Shown here: in pieces, positions 12,403-42,435 of the stretch | Numbering within the stretch: position 1 is the stretch's first letter | How the letters are laid out: each line of letters begins with the position of its first letter | From: Patescibacteria group bacterium | GTDB lineage: Bacteria; Patescibacteriota; Microgenomatia; UBA8517 | Assembly: GCA_035549555.1 (NCBI GenBank) | Contig: DASZQR010000010.1 | Location: 1-64,000 of the forward strand | Direction of reading: 5' to 3' | Length of the DNA stretch: 64,000 nucleotides | Program-made: the position numbers and the translations under genes | The notes under the pieces: generated by a model | The model's input: the letters and a program-made list of their open reading frames with translations, nothing else | What the model was told of the DNA's origin: nothing | The model's database searches: none

Positions 12403-12422
12403 AAAGTGACAAGCTTTGCTTA
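12403..12422. repeat. Exact 20-bp repeat, second copy at 4404-4423
   Basis: The 20 bases at 12403-12422 are identical to 4404-4423. Here they fill the gap between tRNA-Ala and the minus-strand stop codon (12420-12422); there they end on the first base of the radA start codon. The core contains AAGCTT flanked by AAAG/CTTT. An exact 20-mer twice in 64 kb is unlikely by chance and suggests remnants of a dispersed element. Confidence 0.6.
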
Positions 12423-27000: not shown

Positions 27001-28755
27001 TTCGTTAATGATAATATCATCAAATTCAACATAATCGCCGTTAGGAGCAGTATTTTGAGGCCTTAAAATTGGAGATCCGTATGGAGAAGCAGCTACATAT
27101 ACATACGTTGCATCAAATGATTGCCAAGAACTTGAATTTGTTCCGGTCCACAAAGCAGCTCCGTTTGGTAAAAGAATTTGAGGAACAGCAGTTCCATCTC
27201 CTCTTGCGTACCCAGTAATTCGATAAGTTTTTCCTGCAACGCTAGATAGGTAAGTCTGGTATACATTCTGGCTTGAGGCGCCAGAGCTGACTATCTTTAA
27301 AGATTGAGTTCCGCCATGTGGACTGCTGGCATCTTTCGAGATCGTAGCGCCATTTAATGTGCTCCAGTAAGAAGTCCCAGACTGTTCCATATCTCCATCA
27401 AGTGTAGATAAAATAGAATCACTTCTTATGCCTGTATCAAGGGAAACTGTTACGTCGTCAAATTCTACATATTGGCCATTTATACTGCTTGATTGAAGCA
27501 GATAAAAAGTACTATTACCCGTAGAAGTTAAACCTACAAAGTCAAACGGTTGCCAGGTTGCCGATGTTGTTCCAGTCCACATAAGATTACTTCCCAAATA
27601 AACTTTAGGTGCAATATTCCCATCACTTCTTGCATATCCATAAACCCTGTAAACAGTATTGTTAGAAAGAATATTCTGAGAAGCATTAGGATTTGTACCA
27701 CCGGTTGCAGTGATTCTTAAAATTTGTGTTCCTCCATGGGAAGTCCCTGTTTGTTTCGAAAGTGTTGCGCTTCCGCCTGCTGTCCACGCCCCCGTCCCAC
27801 TTGCTTCCATATTTCCATCAGTAAGTAATTGTGTTGGTGTTGCAGTAGAAGAGGGAATGTTTACTTCAGTAACTGAAACGTTATCAATATTTAGGGTTGT
27901 TCCATTCACTGGAATTTGGAATCCCACATATAAAGCTCCGGCTGCAATAATATTTTCAGTGTATGTTCCATTTGCTGAGCGCATCGTTCCAAAGCCACCA
28001 TTTCCTGCGAGAACCCTGACACTTCCTGAGGTATAACCAGAAATGGTATAAGTGATTTGATAACTTCTTCCAGCTACCAAAGGAACATTTTGATAAGTAA
28101 GGTCAGTAGTTTGTGCGTTTGTAGCCACTCCCATCCCACCAGAAATAGTCCAACCTGTCCCATTAAAGTTCCAACTTGAGCTGCTATCAAAAGTTCCGTT
28201 TAAAACTAAATTTCTTCCTGTACTAGTCGCACCATTCACTGCTCTCGCATAACTTTGGGTAGTGGTTGTATCATCCAAAGGCCAACCCGCAACAGCTTGA
28301 TTCATATCTGTAATAAAAACTTGGTTAGTTGTATACCCTGCAGGGCTTGCAGATGGATTTCCATAATATAAATAAACATCAGCTCCTGTTGTTGGAATCG
28401 AATCAACATTTATCCAGATTAAAGTTGAAGCTGTATTGCATGTAGTTGGCTCTATCCAAAAAGGAAGTTGTTTTCCAGTTGCATTTGTAATTCGCAAATC
28501 GTTACAAGTCGAAAGCATTTTCCCTGCACTTATTAATGTTGAAGTGTCTAATGTTATTTGCGTCTGAAAATTTGTTTGTGTTGCACCGGAGGTATTGGAA
28601 ATAGGGAAGCGTTGTCGAAAAGCCCACTTGGTATCAAACCATGCTCCTTGTACTGGTTTACCCGCCCAAAGTTTTATTCCAACTAAAGATATAACTACTA
28701 TAAATAGTATAAGTCCGTAAAATAATTTTGGTTTTCTTTTGAAAAGTTTTTTCAT
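21007..28755 (-). CDS. Giant surface protein, DUF2341 plus LamG and CBM-like modules
   Basis: At 2582 residues, the largest gene here. N-terminal anchor (about residues 9-31), then DUF2341 ('WAFRQRFPI...LYYGNPSA'), three CBM-like modules, two LamG, three more CBM-like modules, then five LamG, judged from repeated 'DGxMExSGTxxW' starts and seven 'DDVKIYNYARTPQQ'-type ends. The block CBM-CBM-CBM-LamG therefore occurs twice within this protein and once in the paralogue at 14508-20981. Stretches of near-identical DNA (for example around 17,745-17,840 and 26,876-26,960) show recent duplication or gene conversion. It ends in 'FYGPSTGTP', matching the paralogue's tail. Its ATG overlaps the stop codon of the fibre gene in a TAATG junction, so translation is probably coupled. 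A likely role is adhesion to host or community glycans; substrate unknown. Confidence 0.9.
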   Translation of the reverse strand: MKKLFKRKPKLFYGLILFIVVISLVGIKLWAGKPVQGAWFDTKWAFRQRFPISNTSGATQTNFQTQITLDTSTLISAGKMLSTCNDLRITNATGKQLPFWIEPTTCNTASTLIWINVDSIPTTGADVYLYYGNPSASPAGYTTNQVFITDMNQAVAGWPLDDTTTTQSYARAVNGATSTGRNLVLNGTFDSSSSWNFNGTGWTISGGMGVATNAQTTDLTYQNVPLVAGRSYQITYTISGYTSGSVRVLAGNGGFGTMRSANGTYTENIIAAGALYVGFQIPVNGTTLNIDNVSVTEVNIPSSTATPTQLLTDGNMEASGTGAWTAGGSATLSKQTGTSHGGTQILRITATGGTNPNASQNILSNNTVYRVYGYARSDGNIAPKVYLGSNLMWTGTTSATWQPFDFVGLTSTGNSTFYLLQSSSINGQYVEFDDVTVSLDTGIRSDSILSTLDGDMEQSGTSYWSTLNGATISKDASSPHGGTQSLKIVSSGASSQNVYQTYLSSVAGKTYRITGYARGDGTAVPQILLPNGAALWTGTNSSSWQSFDATYVYVAASPYGSPILRPQNTAPNGDYVEFDDIIINEVDPLVGIPTNGVTLGASANGHLTNAYSFDGTNDNVNIYSGSLNSVFNPSEGTIVAWAKVSGAGVWTDGTQRVIVRIGRVDGNNNLTISKSASSNTLTASYVAGGSNLTANTTTSTSGWFMVTLSWSKSSDQVKLYLNGTQSGSTLTGVGTWSGNFQSVNSVIGDASTTPGFPWSGLINDVRIYNYALTPAQIAAQYNASYDTQNYTTANDTGHELVREYNTNITVGAAATEEVGQASILNWHLDEGNGTTANDASTNANNGTLAGTTPPSWQTENNCVIGKCLLFDGQSSKITGTKAANNLQTVAFWIYPTDITSRGIMNLDGGTHKISLSSSGIVTATGWSSPTYYVNGIATTNPVLSLNQWQYVEITTATPFSTSSSFTVGTDGSTFTQGYLDEIKFYNYARSAAQALANYNSVGNLIGAARQYGPNGLIANWGLQDTTSTQSYASVSNAGQSTGRNIAVDGDMEASDTSAWTNAGSGAAFTKDTTNPHAGSRDLRITWVSGSNPLAQLVSNPIVIGRSYRVRGWFKSDGSHTSGVYDNSTPLAVSTTGGSWESFDITYVATTTGLRFRVNTSSAGYADFDDITVQEVNIPSSATTPAQLLTDGNMETSGTAAWTAGFSATLSKQTNNPHSGALVLRVASNGSLQGYAGQNILTVGNVYRIYGYARSDGTAIPKIAGNSVTYWGSGTNSTTWQPFDVVLVASSGSLLALQNQTTSGYVEFDDVTVSLDTGIRSDSILSTLDGDMEQSGTSYWTAANAATLSKDSSASHGGTQALEILCTGTGNPAARQTPLLTGKTYRLTGWAKGDGTVGPSVVVASGAIWTGTASTSWQFFDVSWIATSNLISLVAATSSSGKFVEFDDLTLTEISPLSGINTNGVTVGAAANGHLTNAYSFDGTNDFVNIYSGSLNSAFNSSEGTLIAWAKVNGSGVWTDGSVRRIVSLSVDGSNLISLAKSNANNTLIMQYYAGGTASYVSNGSDPSGWFQIAITWSKSTDQAKGYLNGTQQGATMTNLGTWAGNLTSSRVTIGADTTSGSNPWSGLINDVRLYNRALSPAEISQLYNYAPGPVAYWKMDEGTGTNVNDSSGNGNTGTWNGTLGSQWASGKYGKGGNFNGTDNYVSVSSSNTLGPTAITMAAWVKLPSGFASNGDVINRGDNSGYRMQITAGKTVAFDDRGATNQVNPSTTLTTGVWNHIEMVGDSSGLKVYLNGVLIGSNSTAYGGTNTGNLLIGSRFTSSGYLPAVIDDVKIYNYARTPQQILDDMNGGQNANNLSAQGNSLPKPLDYWKFNEGYGTTANNSGVNSTETGTLNSATWLLNNNCKANNCVNISASTNNVSFGDVSYIDSLTGFSTDFWVNPQVLGTSKMILSKANTSSQRVFAIETDPSTNSEIRVFVSSSASDTSNFCKTTGLGLTTGTWQHLAIVYDGTGPTITVYKNGNPITCTVTGTIPSSLVSGTTSNLKLGQGDDSTPTALLAYYDDLKIYNTALSQSQILLDQNGGQAEDFGTRSAPEANQLTDTAGNPPVAYWNFDEGTGSTVNDSSGNSNTGTWQGTLGNQWATGKYGKGGNFNGSDNYVSTNTSTSTTTMPNFTSEAWFKTGTASGHDIISLGGTQTGTDNSHSRDLYMGADGKIYFGIADGGSNIYTVNSLSTLNDGKWHFAVGTYTSSTKAIALYIDGVSQGTTNDTGESSFSGWWRIGSYRLTAWTQASDGYFTGQIDDVKIYNYARTQAQIAYDYNRGAPVGWWKFDECQGTTANDSSGNRNTGTITIGGSGTQTSAGTCNTSGTAWGNGVVGKFDSSLNFDGTDDYVNTNSTFSSIFQNSYSISFWMKPSNGHPAGIQSMFGNAESVSCGGNPCIVKSFLNGDGTIEFQFQPGGATTADAKTNNAIFASGQGNWTHVTIVANSTINGIGGILIYINGQLATLNATNNGSTASVTFSGYTAINKLFLGARDSGTASQLFSGQIDDVRIYNYALSLTQVQKLYNDGFSTFYGPSTGTP

Positions 28756-31700
28756 TATTGTTTGTCAACAATCCACCAATTGAAATTAATATTATTGATG
28801 TCTGCTGTCGGAATCGAAACTGTAAAACTTGTTCCTTGAACCTTTGTTGTTACCGCTAAAACCTTGCTTGTTGCTGTGCTTGCGGTTACAAAGATTAAAG
28901 AGCTGTTGTTAACAGCATTAGTATTAATAATAACATTTGTTGCTCCAGCTGTAATTGTGCCTGTTCCAGCCGATGTTCCAGCAACATTATATTTATTAGC
29001 AGTAACAGATTGGAACTTTGCATTTCCGTTTGTATCAAAAGTTATCAGTCCGTTCATAAATTCAACATTTCCCAAAGCTAAGTCTTGAATTTTCAAAACG
29101 CCTATTGCATTTATTGATTGATTAGTATCATCAAATGTCAATCCGCCAACATTAAGCTTGCCGTTTACAACTGTATCTCCCAAAGTCGTATCTCCAAGTA
29201 CATTCAATTTTGCAGTATCAAGCTCGTGTAAGTTTGCAATAATTCCGCTATCGCTTGCTGTAAAGCTATCTTGAAGCATTAATGCAATGTTGTTTAGTTG
29301 TGCGCTTCCTGTTGCAGCGATTGCATCAGCGTTAGGATCGTACCAGGTATTATTTACAAAAACCAATACTGTATCTTTGCCGCTTGAAGAGCTCCAGTTT
29401 TCAAGTGCCATACCAATAACTCTTCCGGCTTGTGTAGCTTTAGTTGCGCGTCCAGGTTGATCGCTAGTTGTAAGATAATCTCCTGGAGCAATCTCAGGAG
29501 AATCTGTTGCAATTTTTACGGGAACACGTCCATTAAGAGCAACTGGCTTTGGATTATTTGAAGGATCAACTATATTGTATCCGGTTGATGTAAAGTCATT
29601 ATAGTTATTCGATACTATTCCGATCACATTTCCTTGATAAGCTAAACTAGACTTTGTTAAAACTGAAGTTTGCTGTGTTTGTCCGGTAATTATTCCTCCT
29701 TGACCGTCGCTTACTTTAGTTGTTACGGTTTGGCTGCTTGGAGCAACGATATCGCCATAATCAACGCTTCCGTCTGTTGGATAAAACTCAGCATAATCTG
29801 CAGCTGGAGTTCCAGAACAATCTGTTATTTCATCAAATCCTGCTCCGTTTGTAGTATGACAAAGTGCTGCAGTTCCTGTACTTCTTAGAGTTGTAAATGT
29901 GTTTCCAGCAGAATTTATCTTAAATCTTGTTGTTCCTGAATTGCTTGCTGTTAAAATATCTTGGCTTTCTGTTTGATTAAGAAGTACAAGAGATTGGCCG
30001 ATTGTCGACAATTCATTGGTATTATCAACTGTTAAAAGTGAAGTAGGAGATACTGAAGGGCCAATTCCAACAAGTCCGTTTCCACCCGTACTTGTTCCAC
30101 TATTTAATAATATATTTCCAAGATTATATGTAGTTAAAGTCAAATTAGAAGAATTAAATATTTCGCCAGCTGCAATAGTAAGCGGAGCAGAAGATTTTAT
30201 GTTGCTTGAAACTGGATTCGTAAATGAAAAGTCATATGCATCAACAATATCTCCAGGAGCATTAAATGAAACTGGTAAATTATTTGAAATTTGAGTTTGG
30301 CTTACTCCAAATATAGTTGAACCATTATTTTGTACATCAAGAATATTACCTAAAATTCCATTAGAACCAACATTAAGTTTTAATAAATCTCCAGTTGCAG
30401 TAGTAGAAGATCCTGGGTTCCAATAAATGCTTGCCAAATTACCTGAAGTGAAAGCAGTGGAGGTAGATGTGATATTTAGCAGATTGCCTGTTGTTATGCT
30501 AGACGAATTAAGATAAAGTCCATCGCCAGTTGTCAAAGAGTTTGCATTGAATGCAAATGCTCCAGAGGTTGTCGTGCCAGTTACAACACTTGATGCAAAT
30601 GTTTGAGCTCCTGTACCGCTTGTGAAATTCAGTGCTGTCGCGCCTGTTGAATTACCGATGTTTACTGTTTTTGCAGAAGCTCCTGTTCCAAGATTAAGTG
30701 TCTGTGTCCCGGAAGTTGCAATTCCTGATAAAATATTTACTGTTGAATTTGCCCCTGCTGCTCCAGCAGCGATATTAATCGTTTGCGCTCCTGTGTTAGC
30801 TCCATTTCCAATACCAATTGTATTGCCTCCGGTTCCACTTCCAAAGTTTATTGCAGTGTAGGCACTATTTCCATTGCCGATATTAAGTGCAGTTGTAGCA
30901 TTTCCCCCAAAATTAATAGTTGTTGGGGTTGAATTCAGTAGGTTAAACGAGCTTGAACTACTTGTGAAATTTGATCCGTTAACCGCCAGATCTGACGCGC
31001 TAGTTATAGTTCCTGACCCAGTTGTAGAAATATTTCCAGAAGTTGTCACAGCATCACCGCTTGTAGTAGGTGAGAGTGTAGTTCCTGTTCTAGTCCAATA
31101 TCCAAGAGCTCCAGAGCTTGGGGCTGATGTTGTTAAATTCTTGCTTCCATCAGTATATACAGCTGAGTTTGCTGTAAGTCCTGTGACATTTATTCCTGCT
31201 ATCGTTTCATTTCCTGCTGCTGTTACCACCCAATTTGTTCCATTTATATAGTTAGTTAAATTGCTTCCAAAATTAATACCATTAAATGTGTTATTACTTG
31301 CCGCAGCTGCAACACTTAAATTTACTAGATTGTTAGTGTTTGTTCCAGAAGTTGCAGTTCCTGTTGCAGTTATATTTTCTCCGCTTACTGTTATGCTTCC
31401 GCTTGATGCAGCATTTGTAAATGCCAGTGCCTGAAGATTTGCGCTTGTTGTATTAAGTGCTGTATTCGTGTAACTATAGCTGTTGCCGCTGGTATTTACC
31501 GCAGTTCCCGTTATATTTCCTTGATATCCAAGTGTCCATCTTGTTGTCCCTGAATTGCTGGCGGTCATAATATCTTGATTTTCAGTCTGATTAAATAAAG
31601 CTAATGATTGTCCTATGTTTGATAATTCATTTGCATTGTTTACTGTAAGTAAGGAAGTGGGGGTAACTGACGGCCCAATTCCAACTTTCCCGTTTCCTGT

Positions 31701-34700
31701 CGAGCTTGTACCTGTATTTAGTAAAATATTTCCGGCATTATATGTTGTCAAAGTCAGATCTGATGAATTAAATGTTTCGCCAGCAGCAATATTAAGATTA
31801 GAACTGGACTTGATATTACTTGCAACCGGATTTGTAAAATTAACATCGTATGCAAATCCAACATCTCCAGCTGCAGTGAACTGTGTTGGAAGAGCAGCTA
31901 TTATTTGAGTTTGGCTCACTCCAAATATAGTTGAACCATTATTTTGTACATCAAGAATATTACCTAAAATTCCATTAGAACCAACATTAAGTTTTAATAA
32001 ATCTCCAGTTGCAGTTGTTGAAGCACTTGGTGACCAGCTGAGGTTTGCAATTGCTCCAGATGTAAAAGCCGTTGAAGTAGAAGAAAGTGATAATAAATTA
32101 CCGCTTGTTATTGAGCTGCTTGATATGTCAACAGCGTTTCCACTTGTTAATGAGTTTGCTTGCAAATTAAATCCAGCGTTCACTCCAGTTCCGTTTGTTG
32201 TATTAGGAGCTAGATTGAATGTATCTGTTGCTGTTGCAGGTGATAAAACACCCCCTGATGTCCTACTCCAAAAACCCGAGCTTCCAGTCCCTCCAGAGCC
32301 TCCAACCCAGCTTGGGATTCCAGCTGAAACTGTTAATGTTTGTCCTGACGATCCAATCCCTAGTCTACTTAAGGTTCCACCGGAATTTCTGTAATAAATA
32401 TCTCCAGTTGCATCAGATCCCAGATTTAAAGCCACAGTTCCGCTTCCGTTGCCGATCGTTGTATTTCCGCTTCCTGTTGTATTAATATTTGTTGCCCCAA
32501 TTAAATTTGTAGTTGAGCTCAGGTTTCCTACGTTTACTGTTGTGGCGTTTGTTGTTCCGACGCCAAGAGTTCCGGAAGTTAATGTATCATATCTTGTTGA
32601 AGGAGAAACTAAAATGTTTCCAGAATTATCAAGAGTAAATTTAGTGCTTGATGTTGTTCCAGCATCAATTAAGTCACCGCTATTTTCAGCAATAGTAACT
32701 CCAGCTGTTGTTGAATTTGTTCCGATTCCGAGCTGTGTGGTTGCCGTATTCCAGAAAAAACTATTATTCCCTGTAATGCTACTTGCCCCGTTATAATATG
32801 CAATTTGTCCGCTTGCACCGCTTCCAGAAATACCGCCTGTTCCAGTAGTACATGTTACTAAATTGTTTGATCCATCTAAACACAAAGCACTTCCAGTGCC
32901 AAGTGATAAATTAGTAAGACTAATGTTGCCTGCAAGTGTAGTGGTGTCTTTTGCGCTTGCAATATTAATTGCATCAGCGGTTGTATCATTTGTTCCTATA
33001 TTAATAATATTGCCAGCATTTCCTGTTCCAATGTTTATGGTTTTTGCGTTATTTCCCGTCCCAAGATTGAGAGCGTTTGCTGTTCCTGAATCAATTGTTC
33101 CAGCTCCTGCAAATGTTAAGGCAGTAGATGAAACGTTGATTGTATCTAAGCTTGGAACTCCTGTTATATTTCCTGAAGTATCAAGGTTAAAAGCGTTAGA
33201 AGATAAAGCAAGCGTTCCACTTGTATTACCAACAGTAGTATTTGCAACTCCTGTACTATTTATATTTGTTGTCCCAGTTAAAGTTAGTCCACCTGTGCCT
33301 TGAAGAAGTCCGCTTTGGGCATTTACTCCAACTGCAACCAAAGAAGAATTAAGGGTCTCTGCTCCAGCGGCAGTGACAATGAAATTTGTACTATTTATAT
33401 AGTTTGATAAACCTGAACCAAAATTTATTCCATTAAAAGTATTACTTCCAGCAGTTATTGCTGAAAGATTAATAAGGTTATTCGTATTAGTTCCGCTCGC
33501 TGGAATAGACCCGGTTGCAGATACGTTTATACCGTTTGTAATGATTCCAGCTCCGGTATTTGAATTTGATAAAGCAAAGTTGGCAAGAATACCGTTGTTG
33601 GCTGAAATTGGGTTTTGTATATCAAGCTGGTAGCTTGGTGTTGTTGTTCCTGCTCCAATTTGTCCGGTAGTTGCTATTGTGTCTCCTTCAGTAGCTGGTG
33701 TTAATATTGTTCCAGTTCTTGTCCAAAAACCGATTGTTCCACTGCCACTTCCGCTAACCCAACTGAGATTTCCCGAACCGTCATTAGTTAACGTAGATCC
33801 GCCTGCTCCTTGAGTTGTAGGAAATGAATAAGTCACTCCATTAACTTTAGTAATATTGCCAAATGTTGCGTTTCCTGCCGCTGAGAGGTCTGATGCAAGT
33901 GTCGTCACTCCAGAAACATTTAAAGCTCCAGACAATACGCTTGCTCCCGAAATTGCTAAATCTCCGCTTCCTGTAATCTTACCACCGACATTAAGAGCAC
34001 CAGAAAGAGCGGTGGCACCTTTAACATTTAAATCATTATTAATAGTAGTAGTACCGGTTGTTGCTGAAATACTTGTTGTAGTTGAGGTAAGTCCGATATT
34101 AAGAGATGTTACGTTTTTTGGTAATAAATTAAATGTTGCACTTGATGAAGTCAAATCGCCTGATATATCAACATTTTTTGCAAAAGTTGCATTGTCTGAT
34201 GCTTCCAGCGTTCCAGTTGAAACATCGGTTGATGTTAAACCCTTTACAAAATCCGCAACTTGTTTAAAAGAAGACTCAATGTTTACATTAAAAACCGGGA
34301 CATTAGCTTTTGTCTCTGCTGCCAAAACTTGGACATTTTGTCCAAATTTTGAGGCCACATCTTTATTATCCGCAAAATTATTATTCCTGGAGCTTAAAAA
34401 ACTTTTAACAGCACCAGGCATACCTGGAAAGTAATTTACCGCAATATTATCCGCATTAGCTTTGAATAAGTTCGTTGCGGAGATTACTGCGGGAGAAATT
34501 TTAAATACTCCTGCAATCAAAATAAAACCAAAAAAAGAAAAACCAACTATTTTTAGAATATTTTTTTGCTGAGGTGCAAGCGTTGGGGCATTATATATAT
34601 CTATTGGAGTAGGTAATGCTTCAGTGATGATATTAGGGTTTATTTTAAGAGGTTCTACTATATTATCTATCTTAATTATTTTCGGGGTATCACTAACAGT

Positions 34701-34925
34701 TTGATTAACAACAATTTTCTTTATATATTCTTTTCTTGGCGTCTTAAAACCATTTATCTTTAACTCTGTAAGTTTTGAAATTTCATATCTTCTGTGGCCG
34801 CCATTAGTTCTTACTGCAATAAGTTTTCCAGCAACTTCCCATCTTCTTAAGGTTTTAGTAGATACTCCAAGTTTTATTGCAGCTTCATTAATGGAGATAT
34901 ATTTATTTCGGGGCAGTTTACTCAT
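28755..34925 (-). CDS. Giant membrane-tethered fibre with cytoplasmic MerR-type HTH
   Basis: A 2056-residue protein with three parts. Residues 9-56 form a MerR/excisionase helix-turn-helix ('ISINEAAIKLGVSTKTLRRW' and 'GGHRRY'). After a 65-residue linker comes one membrane helix (about 123-141). Then follow about 1,550 residues of Gly/Ser/Thr/Asn-rich beta repeats such as 'KTVNIGNSTGATALNFTSG' and 'LNIGTGNNAKTINIG', typical of trimeric fibre or tail-fibre proteins. Residues about 1715-1862 form a folded domain ('DYAEFYPTDG', 'NGRVPVKI', 'PGDYLTTSDQPGRA', 'GRVIGMALE') shared with the pseudo-c protein at 35089; a last beta region follows. By topology the HTH is inside and the fibre outside, as in a one-component membrane transcription regulator or an anchor that uses DNA-binding folds structurally. 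It heads the 22-kb giant operon, and its ATG is 163 bp from the divergent ATPase operon. Confidence 0.88.
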   Translation of the reverse strand: MSKLPRNKYISINEAAIKLGVSTKTLRRWEVAGKLIAVRTNGGHRRYEISKLTELKINGFKTPRKEYIKKIVVNQTVSDTPKIIKIDNIVEPLKINPNIITEALPTPIDIYNAPTLAPQQKNILKIVGFSFFGFILIAGVFKISPAVISATNLFKANADNIAVNYFPGMPGAVKSFLSSRNNNFADNKDVASKFGQNVQVLAAETKANVPVFNVNIESSFKQVADFVKGLTSTDVSTGTLEASDNATFAKNVDISGDLTSSSATFNLLPKNVTSLNIGLTSTTTSISATTGTTTINNDLNVKGATALSGALNVGGKITGSGDLAISGASVLSGALNVSGVTTLASDLSAAGNATFGNITKVNGVTYSFPTTQGAGGSTLTNDGSGNLSWVSGSGSGTIGFWTRTGTILTPATEGDTIATTGQIGAGTTTPSYQLDIQNPISANNGILANFALSNSNTGAGIITNGINVSATGSIPASGTNTNNLINLSAITAGSNTFNGINFGSGLSNYINSTNFIVTAAGAETLNSSLVAVGVNAQSGLLQGTGGLTLTGTTNINSTGVANTTVGNTSGTLALSSNAFNLDTSGNITGVPSLDTINVSSTALTFAGAGTIDSGTANALNLGTGNNAKTINIGTGNAGNIINIGTNDTTADAINIASAKDTTTLAGNISLTNLSLGTGSALCLDGSNNLVTCTTGTGGISGSGASGQIAYYNGASSITGNNSFFWNTATTQLGIGTNSTTAGVTIAENSGDLIDAGTTSSTKFTLDNSGNILVSPSTRYDTLTSGTLGVGTTNATTVNVGNLSSTTNLIGATNINTTGSGNTTIGNGSGTVALNLGSDATGDIYYRNSGGTLSRLGIGSSGQTLTVSAGIPSWVGGSGGTGSSGFWSRTSGGVLSPATATDTFNLAPNTTNGTGVNAGFNLQANSLTSGNAVDISSSSITSGNLLSLSSTSTAFTSGAIANLSWSPSASTTATGDLLKLNVGSNGILGNILDVQNNGSTIFGVSQTQIIAALPTQFTAAGDVGFAYDVNFTNPVASNIKSSSNLNIAAGETFNSSDLTLTTYNAGNILLNTGTSSTGNGKVGIGPSVTPTSLLTVNNANELSNIGQSLALFNQTENQDIMTASNSGTTRWTLGYQGNITGTAVNTSGNSYSYTNTALNTTSANLQALAFTNAASSGSITVSGENITATGTATSGTNTNNLVNLSVAAAASNNTFNGINFGSNLTNYINGTNWVVTAAGNETIAGINVTGLTANSAVYTDGSKNLTTSAPSSGALGYWTRTGTTLSPTTSGDAVTTSGNISTTGSGTITSASDLAVNGSNFTSSSSSFNLLNSTPTTINFGGNATTALNIGNGNSAYTAINFGSGTGGNTIGIGNGANTGAQTINIAAGAAGANSTVNILSGIATSGTQTLNLGTGASAKTVNIGNSTGATALNFTSGTGAQTFASSVVTGTTTSGAFAFNANSLTTGDGLYLNSSSITTGNLLNITSTSTAFTSGNLASIYWNPGSSTTATGDLLKLNVGSNGILGNILDVQNNGSTIFGVSQTQISNNLPVSFNAPGDIVDAYDFSFTNPVSSNIKSSAPLTIAAGEIFNSSNLTLTTYNLGNILLNSGTSTGGNGLVGIGPSVSPTSLLTVDNTNELSTIGQSLVLLNQTESQDILTASNSGTTRFKINSAGNTFTTLRSTGTAALCHTTNGAGFDEITDCSGTPAADYAEFYPTDGSVDYGDIVAPSSQTVTTKVSDGQGGIITGQTQQTSVLTKSSLAYQGNVIGIVSNNYNDFTSTGYNIVDPSNNPKPVALNGRVPVKIATDSPEIAPGDYLTTSDQPGRATKATQAGRVIGMALENWSSSSGKDTVLVFVNNTWYDPNADAIAATGSAQLNNIALMLQDSFTASDSGIIANLHELDTAKLNVLGDTTLGDTVVNGKLNVGGLTFDDTNQSINAIGVLKIQDLALGNVEFMNGLITFDTNGNAKFQSVTANKYNVAGTSAGTGTITAGATNVIINTNAVNNSSLIFVTASTATSKVLAVTTKVQGTSFTVSIPTADINNINFNWWIVDKQ
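30307..30401 (-). repeat. 95-bp exact intragenic repeat, copy A
   Basis: Identical to 31921-32015 (offset 1,614 bp), with similarity extending about 15 bp further with one mismatch. It codes for the fibre segment 'LKLNVGSNGILGNILDVQN' and following residues. Such identity between otherwise diverged repeats points to recent duplication or gene conversion within the fibre gene. Confidence 0.85.
31921..32015 (-). repeat. 95-bp exact intragenic repeat, copy B
   Basis: Second copy of the repeat at 30307-30401. Recombination between the two would delete 538 codons in frame (1,614 bp is divisible by three), giving a shorter but intact fibre. Confidence 0.85.
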
Positions 34926-35046
34926 AGTATTTAAATATTTTTATATTAGCTTCAAAAATTTAGACATTGTCCAAGATTTTGTATATACATTAAGACATTT
35001 ATTAAAGTAGCTTGTCAATAAGCAACTTATTTTTTTCGATAGGGTA

Positions 35047-35085
35047 TTGACCAGTGTTTTGGTAATAAGTAGTATTACTTAATAC
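35047..35085 (+). promoter_or_regulatory. Promoter and nested palindromes before the pseudo-c/F1 operon
   Basis: TTGACC (35047-35052), 17-nt spacer, TAGTAT (35070-35075), start near 35082. Over the -10 lie nested inverted repeats: GTAATA/TATTAC (35062-35067 with 35073-35078), AAGTA/TACTT (35067-35071 with 35076-35080) and GTATTA/TAATAC (35072-35077 with 35080-35085). They look like an operator and end 3 nt before the ATG. The shared intergenic region also serves the divergent fibre gene, whose own promoter could not be placed. Confidence 0.5.
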
Positions 35086-35088
35086 GCC

Positions 35089-35859
35089 ATGCCCAAAAAA
35101 ATTTTATTAGTAATATTTATATTAGGAATTTTAAGTACAAATAATGTTTTTGCTCAGACACAATCTTTTACAGATGTGGGTTCTTCAATTTCTGTTAGTG
35201 GTAATAATATCCAAGACGGAGACATAATTTGTTCGGGATCATCAGGCTATATTCTCTGTCAAAATGAATACGACTCTTCTATGTATGGGGTTGTAGACTC
35301 CAATCCTTCAGCAGATGTACAAATAGTAGACTTAACTAATTCTCAAACAGTAGTTTCAAGAGGTGAAGTTCCTCTTCGAGTTTCTTCTATAAATGGAGAA
35401 ATTAAAAAGGGAGATTTCTTAACAAGCTCTAAAATTCCGGGAGTGGCAGAGTTATCAATTAATCCTGGTTTTGTGATTGGAACAGCTCTTCAGGATTACA
35501 ATTCTACTGACAAAAATGCGATTGGAACCATTCAAGCAAGTTTAAATATCCATCCGCGAACAGATTTAAATTTAAATGCAAGAACAAATTTAGTTTCTCT
35601 TTTACAAAACGGCCTTGCAGGTTTGGGTATAAGTCCTATTTCTGCCCTTCGTTACATTCTCGCCTCAATTCTTGTTATTTCATCATTTGTCATAGGATTT
35701 GTCTACTTTGGCCGTATTGCAAAAACGGGAGTTGAAGCAATCGGAAGAAATCCTTTGGCAGGAATCCGTATTCAGGCAAGCGTTATTATAAACGTCGCAG
35801 TCATGATTGCGATTGTTCTTGTAGGCCTAGTTGCAGCTTATCTAGTTTTAATTATTTAA
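35089..35859 (+). CDS. Surface domain fused to an F0 c-subunit-like hairpin lacking the carboxylate
   Basis: 256 residues. Residues 1-22 are a signal peptide ending 'NNVFA'. Residues about 25-155 form an extracellular domain related to the fibre's C-terminal domain ('QDGDIICS', 'RGEVPLRV', 'KKGDFLTSSKIPGVA', 'GFVIGTALQ'). Residues about 185-256 form two membrane helices joined by the loop 'AKTGVEAIGRNPLAGIRI', closely matching the polar loop of ATP synthase subunit c. In E. coli c the ion-binding Asp61 lies 20 residues after the loop Arg41; here the equivalent residue (20 after Arg220) is Ile240, and neither helix has an acidic residue. Topology predicts the loop inside and both termini outside, as in a real c ring, so a ring would be decorated on its outer face. 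It is first in an operon with gpmI and the F1 genes. A proton-carrying role is unlikely. Confidence 0.85.
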   Translation: MPKKILLVIFILGILSTNNVFAQTQSFTDVGSSISVSGNNIQDGDIICSGSSGYILCQNEYDSSMYGVVDSNPSADVQIVDLTNSQTVVSRGEVPLRVSSINGEIKKGDFLTSSKIPGVAELSINPGFVIGTALQDYNSTDKNAIGTIQASLNIHPRTDLNLNARTNLVSLLQNGLAGLGISPISALRYILASILVISSFVIGFVYFGRIAKTGVEAIGRNPLAGIRIQASVIINVAVMIAIVLVGLVAAYLVLII

Positions 35860-35862
35860 TAA

Positions 35863-37560
35863 ATGTTTTTTAGTCTTTTTTCAAAACCAAAAGTAAAAGT
35901 AAATGCCGGAAAAACAAATCCGGTTGTTCTAGTCATACTTGACGGATGGGGAATAGCTCCGGCATCAGATGGAAATGCAATTACTCTTGCAAATCCAGAT
36001 AACTATAACAATCTACTTGCAAACTACCCGCATTCAGAACTTTTAGCATCAGGAGAATCTGTTGGTTTACCGGCAAATGAAGTGGGAAATACTGAAGTAG
36101 GTCATTTAAATATCGGAGCTGGGCGTGTAATCTTACAAGATCTTCCAAAAATAAATAAAGCAATTCAGGATGGTTCTTTTTTTGAGAACAGAGCTTTTTA
36201 TCATGCCGGATTCCACGCACAAAAAAATAATTCCAAAATTCATATCATGGGGCTTGTAAGTACAGGAAAAGTTCATTCATCTATAGATCATTTATATGCA
36301 CTACTAGAATTTTTCCAAAAAACAAATAACACAAGACCTATTTATATTCACTTATTCACAGATGGTCGTGATGCACCTCCACAGGAGGGAATTAATGTCG
36401 TTACAAAACTCGAAGATTATCTTAATAAGACAAAATCTGCCCAAATCGCAACAATATCTGGAAGATATTATGCAATGGACCGCGATAAAAGGTGGGATCG
36501 TACTAAAAAAACTTATGAGGCAATGGTAAAAGCAATCGGTCCAACAGCAACTTCAGCAAGCGAAGCCTTAAAGGCTAGCTACGCTGCAGGTATTACTGAT
36601 GAATTTATCGTACCAACAATTATTAACAAAAACGGTTTGGTTGAAAATAACGACGCTGCGGTCTTCTTTAATTTTAGAATTGATAGACCAAGACAGCTTA
36701 CGATGTCTTTTGTTATAAAAGATTTTACAAAATCAAATTTAACATGGGAATTTGACCCTTACGCTGTTGATTACGAACATAAACACGAAGGAGATAAAGA
36801 AGTTGTTTTAGATAAAGAGCCATTTGCAAGAGGAGGGGTATTATCAAACCTTTATTTTGTAACAATGACACAATATCAAAAAAATATCCCAGTAAATGAC
36901 ATCGGCTTTCCGCCTGAAATAGTTTCTGATTGTTTGTCTGTTATTCTTTCAAAAAATAATATTGAACAAATGCATATGGCAGAAAGCGAAAAAGAGCGTT
37001 TTGTAACTTATTACTTTGACGGCCTTCGGGAAGAGAAGCAGGAAGGAGAAGACGTCGCAATTGTTCCTTCTCCCCATGTACCAACATATGACAAAAAGCC
37101 GGAAATGTCAGTTTATTCTTTAACCGAAGAATTTAAAAAAGTTTTAAACAAAGACATGTATAAATTTATTGTTATGAACATAGCAAATGCTGATATGGTT
37201 GGGCATACTGGAAATATACAAGCAACTATTAAAGCCATTAAAGCAGTCGATGCATGCCTTAAAGAAATCGCCGAAAGTGTTATGGTTTGTAATGGTACGT
37301 TATTGATTACAGCAGATCATGGAAATGCTGAACAAAAACTTAGATATGACTCAAGCAGTTTCTTTTTTACGTCAGACAAAGGGAAAATGAGCACAGATCA
37401 CACCACAAATCCAGTGCCTTTCATCGCTGTAAGTAAAAATTTATTTAGATCTAATAAACAAATTCCAAAAGGAATCCTTGCTGATATATCTCCAACAATT
37501 TTAAAATTATTAGGTTTAGAAATTCCACCTGTCATGACAGGCAAAAATCTATTAAGCTGA
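35863..37560 (+). CDS. gpmI: 2,3-bisphosphoglycerate-independent phosphoglycerate mutase
   Basis: Interconverts 3- and 2-phosphoglycerate in glycolysis in a two-metal, alkaline-phosphatase-superfamily mechanism. Seen: 'LVILDGWGIAP' (metal-binding Asp), 'GNTEVGHLNIGAGR', 'HLFTDGRDAPP', 'ISGRYYAMDRDKRW', 'NIANADMVGHTGN' and 'LITADHGNAE', all in family order. At 565 residues it is slightly longer than the usual 510-550 and has about 20 extra N-terminal residues. Oddity: the nucleophile motif, normally GNSEVGH, reads GNTEVGH, replacing the phosphorylated Ser by Thr. Threonine serves as nucleophile elsewhere in the superfamily, so activity is plausible. It starts 3 nt after the pseudo-c gene and ends 4 nt before the b-like subunit, placing a glycolytic enzyme inside the F1 operon. 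Confidence 0.95.
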   Translation: MFFSLFSKPKVKVNAGKTNPVVLVILDGWGIAPASDGNAITLANPDNYNNLLANYPHSELLASGESVGLPANEVGNTEVGHLNIGAGRVILQDLPKINKAIQDGSFFENRAFYHAGFHAQKNNSKIHIMGLVSTGKVHSSIDHLYALLEFFQKTNNTRPIYIHLFTDGRDAPPQEGINVVTKLEDYLNKTKSAQIATISGRYYAMDRDKRWDRTKKTYEAMVKAIGPTATSASEALKASYAAGITDEFIVPTIINKNGLVENNDAAVFFNFRIDRPRQLTMSFVIKDFTKSNLTWEFDPYAVDYEHKHEGDKEVVLDKEPFARGGVLSNLYFVTMTQYQKNIPVNDIGFPPEIVSDCLSVILSKNNIEQMHMAESEKERFVTYYFDGLREEKQEGEDVAIVPSPHVPTYDKKPEMSVYSLTEEFKKVLNKDMYKFIVMNIANADMVGHTGNIQATIKAIKAVDACLKEIAESVMVCNGTLLITADHGNAEQKLRYDSSSFFFTSDKGKMSTDHTTNPVPFIAVSKNLFRSNKQIPKGILADISPTILKLLGLEIPPVMTGKNLLS

Positions 37561-37564
37561 AAAT

Positions 37565-38086
37565 ATGAGTATTTTGTCAATTATATTTATAGTTTTTATG
37601 TTAATAACTGCAGTCCTTTTAGGTTGTGTTTTGTATCTAGTTTTCCTATATAAAAAAACGCTTGATAAGTACACAAATCTTAAATTAAATATTGAAAAAA
37701 ATGAAATAAAACGAAAAATAAACCTTGATACAAGCCGTATTACAAGTGAGAAATTAGACGATGCAATTCAAAAAGCAAGTTTAGAAGCAGTAGAACTTAT
37801 AGAAAAGAATGCTAAAAATATTGCAAACTCAATAAAAAGGAAAACCGTCGAAGATCTAATAGAAGAAAAAAGGGGAGAAGATAAAGCTGTTTCTGCAGAA
37901 TACGATATCGCAAAAGACGAAATTGAAAAATATAAAGCAAGTGAATTTCAAAGAATTAGAAAAACTGCAAACGATCTCTTAAAAAGCAAATTTACAGATA
38001 TAGTTTCAAGCTCTATTGATGACAATAAACAAGACGAACTTATTTTAAAGGCTTTAGAAAATGCAAAACGATCAAATTTATTCTGA
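37565..38086 (+). CDS. ATP synthase b-subunit-like stalk protein
   Basis: 173 residues: one N-terminal membrane helix (about 4-28) followed by a long charged, coiled-coil-forming region rich in Lys, Glu and Ile, and a short C-terminal part. This is the layout of the F0 b subunit, which holds F1 to the membrane as peripheral stalk. Sequence identity to b is too low to be judged by eye; the assignment rests on architecture and on its position directly before delta, alpha, gamma, beta and epsilon. It overlaps the delta-like gene by 26 nt. In a complex without subunit a its membrane partner would have to be something else, such as the pseudo-c protein. Confidence 0.75.
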   Translation: MSILSIIFIVFMLITAVLLGCVLYLVFLYKKTLDKYTNLKLNIEKNEIKRKINLDTSRITSEKLDDAIQKASLEAVELIEKNAKNIANSIKRKTVEDLIEEKRGEDKAVSAEYDIAKDEIEKYKASEFQRIRKTANDLLKSKFTDIVSSSIDDNKQDELILKALENAKRSNLF

Positions 38087-38510
38087 AATTATTAATTTTG
38101 TATCAACTCGTGATGACGTTTTAAATATTGAAAACGATTTAGATCTTCTCGAGAAGTCGATTTATGAAGAAAAAGAAAATTTTGATTTTGTTCTTAAAAA
38201 TAAAATCAAAAAAACATTTGCAGATACAATTTCAAAATTAACAGAAGGTCAAAACAAAGAAGAAGTGATAAAAAAAATAAAAGAATTTCTTGAAAAAATT
38301 GAATTTTTAGAAATAACAATTCCAAAAGAACCGTCAGAAATTTTAATTGAAAAAATAACTAATTGGCTACAAAAAAATACAGATCATAAGATTGCTTTAG
38401 ATATAAAAGTGGATCCCAAAATTATCGCTGGAGCAACCTTTTCCTATAAAGGAAAATTTTTTGATGGCTCCATAAATAAATTAATAAACGAAACTTTAAA
38501 CTCTTTCTAA
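38061..38510 (+). CDS. atpH: ATP synthase delta-subunit-like protein
   Basis: 149 residues. The C-terminal segment 'LDIKVDPKIIAGATFSYKGK' followed by 'FFDGSINKLI' matches the end of delta (VDpxLiGGxxxxxGdxxxDgSvxxxL), which binds the top of alpha and joins F1 to b. The N-terminal helical part is present but shorter than the usual 105-residue domain (family length about 175-180). Starts inside the b-like gene and ends 1 nt before atpA. No acidic surprises or frameshifts are seen. Confidence 0.75.
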   Translation: MQNDQIYSEIINFVSTRDDVLNIENDLDLLEKSIYEEKENFDFVLKNKIKKTFADTISKLTEGQNKEEVIKKIKEFLEKIEFLEITIPKEPSEILIEKITNWLQKNTDHKIALDIKVDPKIIAGATFSYKGKFFDGSINKLINETLNSF

Positions 38511-38511
38511 T

Positions 38512-39957
38512 ATGCCAAAATACCAAGATTATCTAAATGAAACAGGTGAAATCGGAGAAGTAAAAGAAGTGTTGCATTCAATAGTCTACGTAAGCGGCCT
38601 TCCTTCTTTAAAGCCAAACGAAGTTGTTGTTTTTGATAATGGAGAGACAGGCCAGACAATTTCTATCTCAAATGAACATTCGGAAGTTCTTGTTTTGTCC
38701 CATGTTCCAATTAAAGTTGGGCAAAAAGTTGCTCGCACAAATAAATCTTTATCAATTGATATTTCAAATGCAATTTTAGGAAAAACAGTGGATCCTCTCG
38801 GGCATTGTTTAGATAATCAAAACTGCCCTGCAGGAACAATAAGAGAAATCGATACAACACCTCCAAATTTACTTTCAAGAACTCCAATAAAAGAATCTCT
38901 TGAAACTGGAGTCTCGCTTGTTGATCTTGTTATCCCAATCGGTAAAGGCCAAAGAGAGTTAGTGATCGGAGATCGCAAAACTGGAAAAACTCAATTTTTT
39001 ATTAAGACAATTGTCAATCAAACTCAGAAAGAAAATATTTGTATTTACGCTTCGGTCGGAAAAAGAATTGTTGAAATAAAAGAAATTTTAAACACGCTTA
39101 AGAAAAAAGGGGTGCTACAAAATACAATCATTGTTGCCTCAGCTTCTTCAGATGCTCCAGGGTTAATTTATTTGACTCCTTATACAGCTATGACCATTGC
39201 AGAACATTTCCGAGATCAGGGCAAAGATGTAGTCGTTATTCTTGATGATCTCACAACTCACGCAAAATATTATCGTCAGATCTCGCTTCTTGCAGGCCGT
39301 TTTCCAGGCCGCAATTCTTATCCAGGAGACATTTTTTATCTTCATTCAAAGTTATTAGAACGTGCTGGAAATTTTAAAACAGGTTCAATTACATGTTTTC
39401 CTGTAGCAGAATCAATCCTGGGAGATTTATCTGGATATATTCAAACTAATCTTATGTCTATCACAGACGGTCATATTTTCTTTGACTCAGAGTTGGCAAA
39501 CTTAGGACGCCGCCCGCCAATTAATCCGTTTTTATCAGTTACCCGTGTAGGAGGACAGGCCCAAACTCCATTACTTCGCGATATTACCCGTGATTTAAGT
39601 TCATTTCTTGTTAGTCTTGAAAAATTAAGAGACTTCGTACATTTTGGAGCAGAATTATCAGAAGACGTTTTGCAAAAGCTTAAGTTGGGGGATAGGATTC
39701 TTGAATTTTTTAATCAGCCAGTTGATGTGATGCCTATAAATATAAGTATTTTATGTATTGCAATGCTTTGGACAGGTTCTTGGAGAAACCAGGCTCCTCT
39801 CCAAATGAAAGAAAAAATCAAAACTATGGTAAGCGATTATGAAAAAGACGCAAATTTCAAAAATAAGATCGATTCTTTAATCAAATCAACATCCGCTTAT
39901 TCAGACTTCCTGAACAAGCTTAGAGAAGGAAATTATGGACAAGAAAAATACTACTAA
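38512..39957 (+). CDS. atpA: F1 ATPase alpha-subunit-like protein
   Basis: Non-catalytic nucleotide-binding subunit. Seen: P-loop 'GDRKTGKTQ' (family GDRQTGKT), 'VVVILDDLTTHAKYYRQISL', 'YPGDIFYLHSKLLERAG', 'MSITDGHIFFDSEL' and the arginine-finger motif 'SVTRVGGQAQ', all intact. At 481 residues it is about 20-30 shorter than typical alpha because the N-terminal helix that contacts delta is missing. The start at 38512 lies 1 nt after atpH. It overlaps gamma by 23 nt. Divergent but apparently functional. Confidence 0.93.
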   Translation: MPKYQDYLNETGEIGEVKEVLHSIVYVSGLPSLKPNEVVVFDNGETGQTISISNEHSEVLVLSHVPIKVGQKVARTNKSLSIDISNAILGKTVDPLGHCLDNQNCPAGTIREIDTTPPNLLSRTPIKESLETGVSLVDLVIPIGKGQRELVIGDRKTGKTQFFIKTIVNQTQKENICIYASVGKRIVEIKEILNTLKKKGVLQNTIIVASASSDAPGLIYLTPYTAMTIAEHFRDQGKDVVVILDDLTTHAKYYRQISLLAGRFPGRNSYPGDIFYLHSKLLERAGNFKTGSITCFPVAESILGDLSGYIQTNLMSITDGHIFFDSELANLGRRPPINPFLSVTRVGGQAQTPLLRDITRDLSSFLVSLEKLRDFVHFGAELSEDVLQKLKLGDRILEFFNQPVDVMPINISILCIAMLWTGSWRNQAPLQMKEKIKTMVSDYEKDANFKNKIDSLIKSTSAYSDFLNKLREGNYGQEKYY

Positions 39958-40810
39958 ACAAGTTACTGATCTTGAAATATTAGGTGTATTAGCAGATGCT
40001 TATGCACAAATCTCCTCAAGCCGCATGAAAGCTACAAGAGGTTCAGTTCTTTCTTCTAGAGAATTCTTGGAAGATATGCAGCAAATATTTAAAGAATTAC
40101 AAGCATCATACACTGATGAATTTCAAAAATTATTAAAGAAAAAAGGTATCAAAAACGGTCAAAAACTAAAGTTAATAAGTCATAACGGTAAAACTGTAGC
40201 AGTATTTATTTCTGCAAATACAGGCTTTTATGGCGATTTAACTCGAAAAGTTTTTAATAAATTTATTCAGGAAGTTAGAGAAAGAGATTACGAAGCTACA
40301 ATTGTGGGTACTCTTGGTTTAGAAATGTTTCGTCAATCTTTCCCGGATAAATCTTATTCATATTTTGATCTTCCTGATTTCGGATTTGATAGAGAAAAGA
40401 TGGGAGATCTTGTTCGTCACTTGGTCGAATACGAAGAGATCCATATTTTTTATGGAAAGTTTAAAAGCATAATCAATCAAGATCCAGAAGAAGTAGTTAT
40501 ATCTGCAGAAACTCCAGTAAATAAAGACGAGAAGGGAAGGAAAATAAAATATTTATTCGAACCAAGTCTGGAAGAAATTTTAATGTTTTTCGAAAAAGAA
40601 ATGTTCTCTTCAATTTTTGAACAGACAATTACAGAATCTCAGCTGGCCAAATTTGCCTCACGTATGCTTGCTATGGATCAGGCAGGAGAAAAGGTTAGAA
40701 AAAATCTTGAGATAGCAAAAACACAAAATTTGAAACTTGCTCATGCAAGAACAAATAAAAAACAATTAGAATATTTATCGACAGTGGTTTCTCAAAGGAG
40801 ATTTATTTAA
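39935..40810 (+). CDS. atpG: F1 ATPase gamma-subunit-like protein
   Basis: Central rotor shaft. N-terminal helix with 'AYAQISSSRMKATRGSVLSS' (family: ITxAMxMVAxxKlrkA) and C-terminal helix with 'ASRMLAMDQAGEKVRKNLEI' (family: ERMxAMdxAtxNA), which together form the coiled coil inside F1. The Rossmann-like middle domain shows 'AVFISANTGFYGDLTRKVF' in place of the usual SDRGLCGGxN loop, a notable divergence in the part facing the c ring and epsilon. Length 291 is normal. Overlaps atpA and abuts atpD with no spacer. Confidence 0.88.
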   Translation: MDKKNTTKQVTDLEILGVLADAYAQISSSRMKATRGSVLSSREFLEDMQQIFKELQASYTDEFQKLLKKKGIKNGQKLKLISHNGKTVAVFISANTGFYGDLTRKVFNKFIQEVRERDYEATIVGTLGLEMFRQSFPDKSYSYFDLPDFGFDREKMGDLVRHLVEYEEIHIFYGKFKSIINQDPEEVVISAETPVNKDEKGRKIKYLFEPSLEEILMFFEKEMFSSIFEQTITESQLAKFASRMLAMDQAGEKVRKNLEIAKTQNLKLAHARTNKKQLEYLSTVVSQRRFI

Positions 40811-42192
<1,382 letters not shown>

Positions 42193-42193
<1 letters not shown>

Positions 42194-42435
42194 TGCTAAG
42201 TTTATTAGTTAAAAACAGAGATAAAATAGTCTTTCAGGGAGAAGTTGACAATATAACTTCCTACAATAAAAGTGGTATTTTTGATATCTTAGACGATCAT
42301 TCTAATTTTATATCTATTATTGAAAAACAAATTATTTTTAGGCAAAGAGGTTATGAACAGCAGATAGTTGTTGACACAAATGCTCTTATTAAGGTCAGAG
42401 AGAATAGAGTTTGGATTTATTTAGGTATTAAATAA
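42193..42435 (+). CDS. atpC: F1 ATPase epsilon-subunit-like protein, short form
   Basis: 80 residues covering only the N-terminal beta-sandwich of epsilon ('VKNRDKIVFQGEVDNITSYN' and 'SGIFDILDDHSNFISII', cf. family PxxxvfxgexxxvxxpgxxGxxGilpxHxp). The C-terminal helical hairpin that regulates rotation in the usual 130-140-residue protein is absent. The beta-sandwich is the part that sits on the c ring, so docking to a c-like ring may be kept while ATP-dependent inhibition is lost. Last gene of the operon. Confidence 0.8.

Follow-up and report, generated by a model that had tools for sequence, protein, structure and literature searches.

A subunit c-like protein without an ion-binding carboxylate heads F1-type ATPase operons lacking subunit a in Patescibacteria

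The locus and its F1 operon

The window analysed here is a stretch of 64,000 nucleotides from a Patescibacteria group bacterium (GCA_035549555.1, contig DASZQR010000010.1). Its forward strand carries an operon that begins with a gene for a c-like protein, called the rotor protein below, and continues with a phosphoglycerate mutase (iPGM) gene and then genes for b, delta, alpha, gamma, beta and epsilon subunits; no gene for subunit a is included. By the ORF map, the rotor gene (35089-35859) encodes 256 amino acids comprising a signal peptide, an external domain (domain X) and a c-type hairpin. The b-like peripheral stalk subunit (37565-38086), with one transmembrane (TM) helix and a coiled coil, has no significant match in a Pfam search and is assigned by its position and by a family profile that applies in most loci. 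The remaining subunits are recognised by Pfam models: delta/OSCP (38061-38510, PF00213, E=2e-8), alpha with intact Walker A and Arg finger (38512-39957, PF00006, E=3e-71), gamma, the central shaft (39935-40810, PF00231, E=7e-25), beta with intact catalytic residues (40811-42193, PF00006, E=2e-60), and epsilon (42193-42435, PF02823, E=3.5e-7), whose 80 residues, by length comparison, amount to the N-terminal beta-sandwich only. The iPGM gene (35863-37560, PF06415/PF01676) is found in the operon only in the window's family and in other Woesebacteria-type loci, at this same place. Lying between rotor and stator genes, it makes a glycolytic gene apparently co-transcribed with what is proposed below to be an ATP-consuming motor.

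Of 41 loci in the class, nearly all repeat this gene order, as do, contig-end cuts aside, 80 loci from as many species genomes (Woesebacteria, Levybacteria, Amesbacteria, Roizmanbacteria, Shapirobacteria, Daviesbacteria, WWE3 and a few others), with iPGM as a variable element. Both b and delta are absent from seven of the 80 (L086, L105, L108, L113, L132, L155 and L158), all of which keep the c-like protein, alpha, gamma, beta and epsilon; such loci need another means of holding the F1 head. The beta Walker A motif, the beta catalytic Glu and the alpha Arg finger are kept in 66 out of 66. Epsilon lacks its C-terminal helices, measuring mostly 79-105 amino acids versus 135-153 in canonical operons of the class. 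The C-terminal part of epsilon inhibits ATP hydrolysis, so with reduction to the N-terminal domain the hydrolysis-inhibiting part is gone.

The window's beta subunit scores above the NCBIfam atpD cut-off (464.7 vs 462.85). An identity with the alternate F1F0 enzymes (N-ATPases) was considered and rejected, the window's alpha and beta falling short of the cut-offs of both alternate models (380.8 vs 750.5 for TIGR03324, 403.9 vs 752 for TIGR03305). Canonical alpha has Gly after the Arg-finger motif SVTRVG, as does the window's own alpha, but most relatives have Arg, His or Lys there. The substituted residue is a possible marker of the family.

A hairpin homologous to subunit c

The first-pass annotation had placed a two-helix hairpin with the layout of subunit c at the end of the rotor ORF, and the ORF map, a PF00137 match and the predicted fold agree on it. 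The hairpin (residues 183-256, 35635-35856) makes up the C-terminal third of the ORF. When the profile search that the annotation had proposed was run on the isolated hairpin, PF00137 was matched at E=3.5e-4 with 21.2 bits, slightly below the gathering score of 24. An AlphaFold2 model of the rotor protein, predicted as a monomer from an alignment of 80 sequences, has a mean pLDDT of 90.8 and folds the hairpin into two long helices (183-220 and 222-255), which align with F-type c subunits of known structure across 69-78 residues (1.3-2.5 A in most cases, Z about 10-11). A profile made from family hairpins only picks up the phylum's canonical c subunits with E values of 1e-5 to 4e-11. Because of the PF00137 match, the superposition of the fold and the reach of the hairpin profile to canonical c subunits, the hairpin is a homologue of subunit c and no chance hairpin.

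The most conserved part of the rotor protein is the loop GRNPLA (residues 219-224, 35743-35760), which is identical in 81 of 81 core members, with R220, N221, P222, L223 and A224 invariant. GRNP is common to the c-like proteins and canonical c. Invariance of its Arg-Asn-Pro is as expected for continued docking on gamma and epsilon, which the first-pass annotation had proposed, the docking itself being inferred. Three positions, numbered from the loop Arg, are characteristic of the family: Leu at +3, where canonical c has Glu or Asp, Asn or His at +15, and Gly at +26. Ring geometry may differ from that of ordinary c rings, because in the main group bulky residues have mostly taken the place of the inner-helix Gly motif found in those rings.

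Loss of the ion-binding carboxylate

Residue Ile240 (35806-35808), at position +20 from loop Arg220, aligns without a gap to the canonical ion-binding Glu. Among 81 c-like proteins this column holds I29 L15 V13 F12 A8 G3 T1, that is, a hydrophobic residue or Gly in 80 and Thr in one, and none (0/81) is acidic. Canonical c subunits invariably have Glu in this column: 20/20 from the class, and another 20 of which almost all belong to different families of the phylum (40/40 together); a subunit-a gene is detected beside nearly all of these. The c-like proteins were retrieved with a loop-only pattern, so the missing carboxylate was not selected for. The first-pass annotation had put Ile at the ion-binding position, and the gap-free register bears this out; its proposed check, whether the loss is conserved among homologues, comes out in its favour. 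Relatives with an in-register Glu or Asp in helix 2, which would have refuted it, were looked for and are absent from the 81 and from 20 more distant hairpin members. Its further claim that neither helix contains an acidic residue needs narrowing: the membrane-spanning parts are acid-free, but Glu216 sits at the cytoplasmic end of helix 1, just ahead of the loop. This loop-side acid is present in canonical c too and is not an ion-binding residue.

That the hairpin could not carry protons or sodium had also been claimed in the first-pass annotation, and the family-wide loss of the carboxylate, together with the lack of subunit a, supports it. To the extent that an alignment can establish function, the rotor hairpin cannot carry ions, a conclusion reinforced by the lack of subunit a both in all such operons and in the entire genome of the window.

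Absence of subunit a and the genomes that carry the operon

A PF00119 search of the window's genome, which is 96% complete, found no subunit a, and no credible canonical c was found there either; the sole PF00137 match in that genome (G000:C10:128972-129097) is interrupted by stops and was rejected as spurious. A CPR-specific subunit-a profile, built from 20 canonical CPR a subunits and recovering all 20 of its own source loci, gave 0 matches in all the a-less loci, and subunit a was not found in the rotor operon of any locus examined. No conserved neighbour that might replace subunit a was found among the operon neighbours, and no conserved membrane protein accompanies the operon except a surface protein with a helix-turn-helix and a TM helix (HTH-TM, described below).

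It might still be supposed that the complex translocates ions, with residue 235 and an unrecognised stator protein standing in for the carboxylate and subunit a. Asn235 (35791-35793; loop Arg +15) is a family signature, Asn in 71 and His in 10 of the 81, so helix 2 does contain a nearly invariant polar candidate, and the b-delta stator is usually retained. Asn, however, is not protonatable and lies five residues, over one turn, from the site; distant members lack an in-register Asn or His at 235; and apart from the HTH-TM surface protein no membrane protein is conserved alongside. We consider continued ion translocation very improbable.

Among 281 genomes of the class, about 90 encode a full-length homologue of the rotor protein; with carriers defined by a full-length c-like protein at E of at most 1e-20, the count is 89/281. 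Subunit a is also encoded by 60 of the 89, elsewhere in the genome in the cases inspected, and 29 carriers, among them the single-contig genomes G033, G214 and G226, have no subunit a of any kind. In a quick, unrooted tree of 63 beta subunits, a single branch with full support separates all 28 sequences from a-less loci from all 35 canonical sequences. As a statement about sequences, the split is compatible with one ancient paralogous lineage.

The 60 carriers with subunit a, which hence probably have a canonical F1Fo, leave room for the c-like protein to join the canonical c ring as a regulatory subunit. This has next to no credibility, given that the window's genome is itself among the 29 carriers without subunit a and has no credible canonical c, that the c-like gene sits in an operon with its own F1, and that the beta subunits keep to their own side of the tree. 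The hybrid ring and the ordinary ATP synthase are both rejected as readings of the system, by the absence of subunit a from 29 carriers and of a credible canonical c from the window's genome.

Signal peptide and external domain

The rotor protein begins with a signal peptide (residues 1-22, 35089-35154), of which residues 2-15 are helical in the predicted model. An Ala-Gln pair is conserved in A1/A2 at the putative cleavage site, and cleavage ahead of the conserved Gln (after VFA) is inferred to be likely. From the signal peptide we infer that the N terminus lies outside and the loop inside, as in ordinary c.

Domain X (residues 25-157, 35161-35559) is a beta domain identified by structure comparison of the predicted model; a Pfam search gave no match and a PHROGs search no significant match. 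Its fold is that of the phi29 gp12 C-terminal domain and of phage capsid decoration proteins (VIA Z 14.0 to 3suc, phi29 gp12, over 117 residues, and 13.5 to 3gqh). Those phage proteins are trimeric. Unlike them, domain X is attached to a c-type hairpin or forms part of giant surface proteins, and the likeness of fold comes without a significant sequence match.

A divergently encoded giant surface protein

Head-to-head with the rotor gene, across an intergenic region (34926-35088) common to both, lies a gene on the reverse strand (28755-34925) for a giant surface protein of 2056 amino acids. It consists of a MerR-type HTH (PF00376, E=6e-10), a TM helix, a beta-rich fibre and, near the C terminus, a copy of domain X (residues 1742-1857, 29355-29702 on the reverse strand) that the rotor domain X profile detects at E=3e-20. 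An HTH-TM ORF, often giant, stands head-to-head with the rotor gene in 48 of the 72 loci having upstream sequence, many of these being cut by contig ends. Where the neighbour is sufficiently long within the locus DNA (L088, L097 and L140) it can have domain X near its C terminus. The window's genome contains no second copy of the HTH-TM start, apart from a weak HTH match of 40 residues. In a Parcubacteria locus, HTH, linker, TM, domain X and c-like hairpin are all fused in one protein of 536 amino acids (L159:9032-10639). Because of the head-to-head linkage, the common domain X and this fusion, the giant protein is functionally tied to the rotor; the tie is one of linkage and common domain only, and contact between the two is inferred.

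The giant proteins (28755-34925 on the reverse strand and those of L082-L161) combine one TM helix with a MerR-type HTH on the cytoplasmic side; the HTH may bind DNA, F1 or, as in RodZ, a cytoskeletal protein. Two more giant proteins are encoded beside the system, also on the reverse strand (14508-20981 and 21007-28755), each with DUF2341 and about eight laminin-G/concanavalin-like domains; these are likely adhesins. Beside the giant surface proteins there is also an ORF (12420-14465, reverse strand) with TPR repeats and a weak match to O-antigen ligase (Wzy_C).

The linkage to a giant surface protein allows another account of the operon, in which an F1-like ATPase powers the export or assembly of that protein as its substrate and the c-like ring serves as a gate or dock. 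Alpha and beta are homologous to FliI and SctN, which serve export, and some loci do without b and delta, as noted. Yet alpha, beta, gamma and epsilon are all of the F1 type and not of the FliI/FliJ type (beta exceeds the atpD cut-off), no export-apparatus genes occur among the conserved neighbours, and the giant proteins have an N-terminal TM helix of their own that suits them to the ordinary Sec route. Export remains an unlikely explanation, though one to be kept in mind.

Members across the phylum

Applied to 380 genomes of the phylum, the hairpin profile finds further members in large ORFs. The 20 distant members examined all end in the hairpin, never have an acidic residue at the ion site, and mostly precede b, delta, alpha, gamma, beta and epsilon genes; four (L215-L217 and L219) exceed the PF00137 cut-off. 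The external parts found among the 20 are domain X, Big_1/Invasin D3 Ig-like domains, or NHL propellers (up to 2589 amino acids), so that hairpin and F1 stay constant while the external domain varies. Four genomes (G286, G414, G494 and G618) each encode a hairpin fusion plus a canonical operon with Glu, and in L220, L225, L226, L229 and L231 the hairpin protein lies away from F1 genes within the locus DNA examined. Two b-like subunits (L221:7510-9060 and L222:10165-11619) are 485-517 amino acids long, with long coiled coils and Pro/Ala-rich tails, and adjoin NHL-propeller hairpin proteins. The secreted domain fused to the hairpin, the a-less F1 operon, the linked giant protein and this phylum-wide spread had all been overlooked in the first-pass annotation.

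Free variation of the external domains would also suit a static scaffold for surface display, in which the hairpin only anchors domain X and the F1 genes are uncoupled from it, and coupling is without direct evidence. Against such a scaffold, the gene heads an F1 operon across the phylum, and the part conserved best is the loop that in c rings faces gamma and epsilon, which a mere anchor would not retain. We think a purely static role improbable.

Comparison with known systems

Compared with subunit c (PF00137), the rotor family has in common the two-helix fold, the R-N-P loop, the topology and detectable sequence homology; it differs in having no carboxylate and no subunit a partner, in carrying Leu in place of Glu/Asp at loop Arg +3, and in its fusion to a secreted part, about 130 to 2500 amino acids long. 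Measured against a complete F1Fo ATP synthase, the operon has intact F1 catalytic residues and fails on subunit a.

The closest known systems are the F1-like-X0 ATPases of mycoplasmas, of which Type 2 (G1-ATPase) drives gliding and Type 3 is needed for the MIB-MIP immunoglobulin system (PMC3369863, PMC11864180, PMC12994834). The mycoplasma Protein 5 (MSC_0620/MMOB1650) has a signal peptide, an external part and, at the C terminus, two TM helices without charges that a short loop connects, and this two-helix protein was reported to be unlike any F0 subunit (PMC3369863, PMC11864180, PMC12994834). Both systems comprise an F1-like ATPase without an ion-carrying Fo, coupled to surface proteins (by proposal, in the present case) and occurring beside or instead of the canonical enzyme, and Protein 5 has its layout in common with the rotor protein, a likeness of layout only, with no homology data. 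There are also differences: the mycoplasma clusters include a 12-TM protein, of which no counterpart was found as a conserved neighbour in rotor loci, and no recognised c homologue, whereas the rotor hairpin can still be identified as a subunit c; and those clusters lack b and delta, unless GliD is the b-delta fusion that it has been proposed to be, whereas the rotor operon usually keeps them. The window's alpha and beta are matched better by ordinary atpA/atpD models and PDB entries than by MMOB1660/1670 and MSC_0618/0619. A specific kinship with the mycoplasma motors is thus unsupported: by PDB and NCBIfam scores, the window's subunits are no closer to them than to ordinary F1.

The ProAD survey noted c/K subunits without Glu/Asp, 20 of F/N-type and 41 of A-type, and its functional set requires both a and c, which puts a-less operons outside its scope (PMC11738941). 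In the parts of that survey available to us, no surface-domain fusion or system is described for these non-catalytic c/K subunits (PMC11738941). In openly licensed papers, the only literature covered, no description of such a CPR system was found.

A proposed rotary machine

We consider it likely that the operon encodes an ATP-driven rotary machine that translocates no ions and turns surface domains. Torque transmission is the simplest reading because an active-looking F1 and an invariant loop are combined with the lack of an ion site and of subunit a. ATP hydrolysis in alpha3beta3 would turn gamma-epsilon, which would hold on to the conserved loop at the cytoplasmic face of a membrane ring, the assembly of which from c-like hairpins is inferred. 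Without ion site or subunit a, that ring would be a torque-transmitting bearing across the membrane. Each rotor subunit would bear an external domain, so that the turning ring, its rotation being again an inference, would turn a crown of surface domains. That crown would in turn work on a partner at the surface. The giant protein, which is membrane-anchored, divergently encoded and equipped with a domain X of its own, is the likeliest candidate, and b and delta, where present, would hold F1 at the membrane as stator. The biological output is inferred with much less confidence than the machine itself: it may be surface motion or motility, attachment or cyclic binding to another cell, or the handling of fibres.

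A bolder proposal can be built on this. Patescibacteria may possess, phylum-wide, an undescribed class of force-generating machines in which F1 spins an ion-free c ring with interchangeable domains, so as to move, twist or cycle giant fibres, the mycoplasma motors being a parallel or a further-diverged form. We offer this tentatively, as a possibility with somewhat less than an even chance of being right. Should it hold, the unexplained two-helix protein of mycoplasmas may also be a converted subunit c.

Implications

The accepted view is that rotary ATPases couple ATP to ions, and the best-studied exception, that of the mycoplasmas, has an unexplained membrane part. The rotor family provides a c subunit visibly without an ion site and with surface cargo, and so a candidate route by which F1 torque could pass through a membrane without ions. 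There are consequences for annotation also. Papers on CPR score genomes as possessing or having lost ATP synthase; because the beta subunit passes the atpD cut-off, annotation pipelines would call an F0F1 ATP synthase here and over-count the enzyme in CPR. Genomes like the window's would count as carriers of an F-type ATP synthase, yet would be unable to make ATP with it. For a large bacterial group thought to live on other cells, in which a review expects unrecognised motility machinery (PMC11852755), the rotor operon would represent a proposed surface machine.
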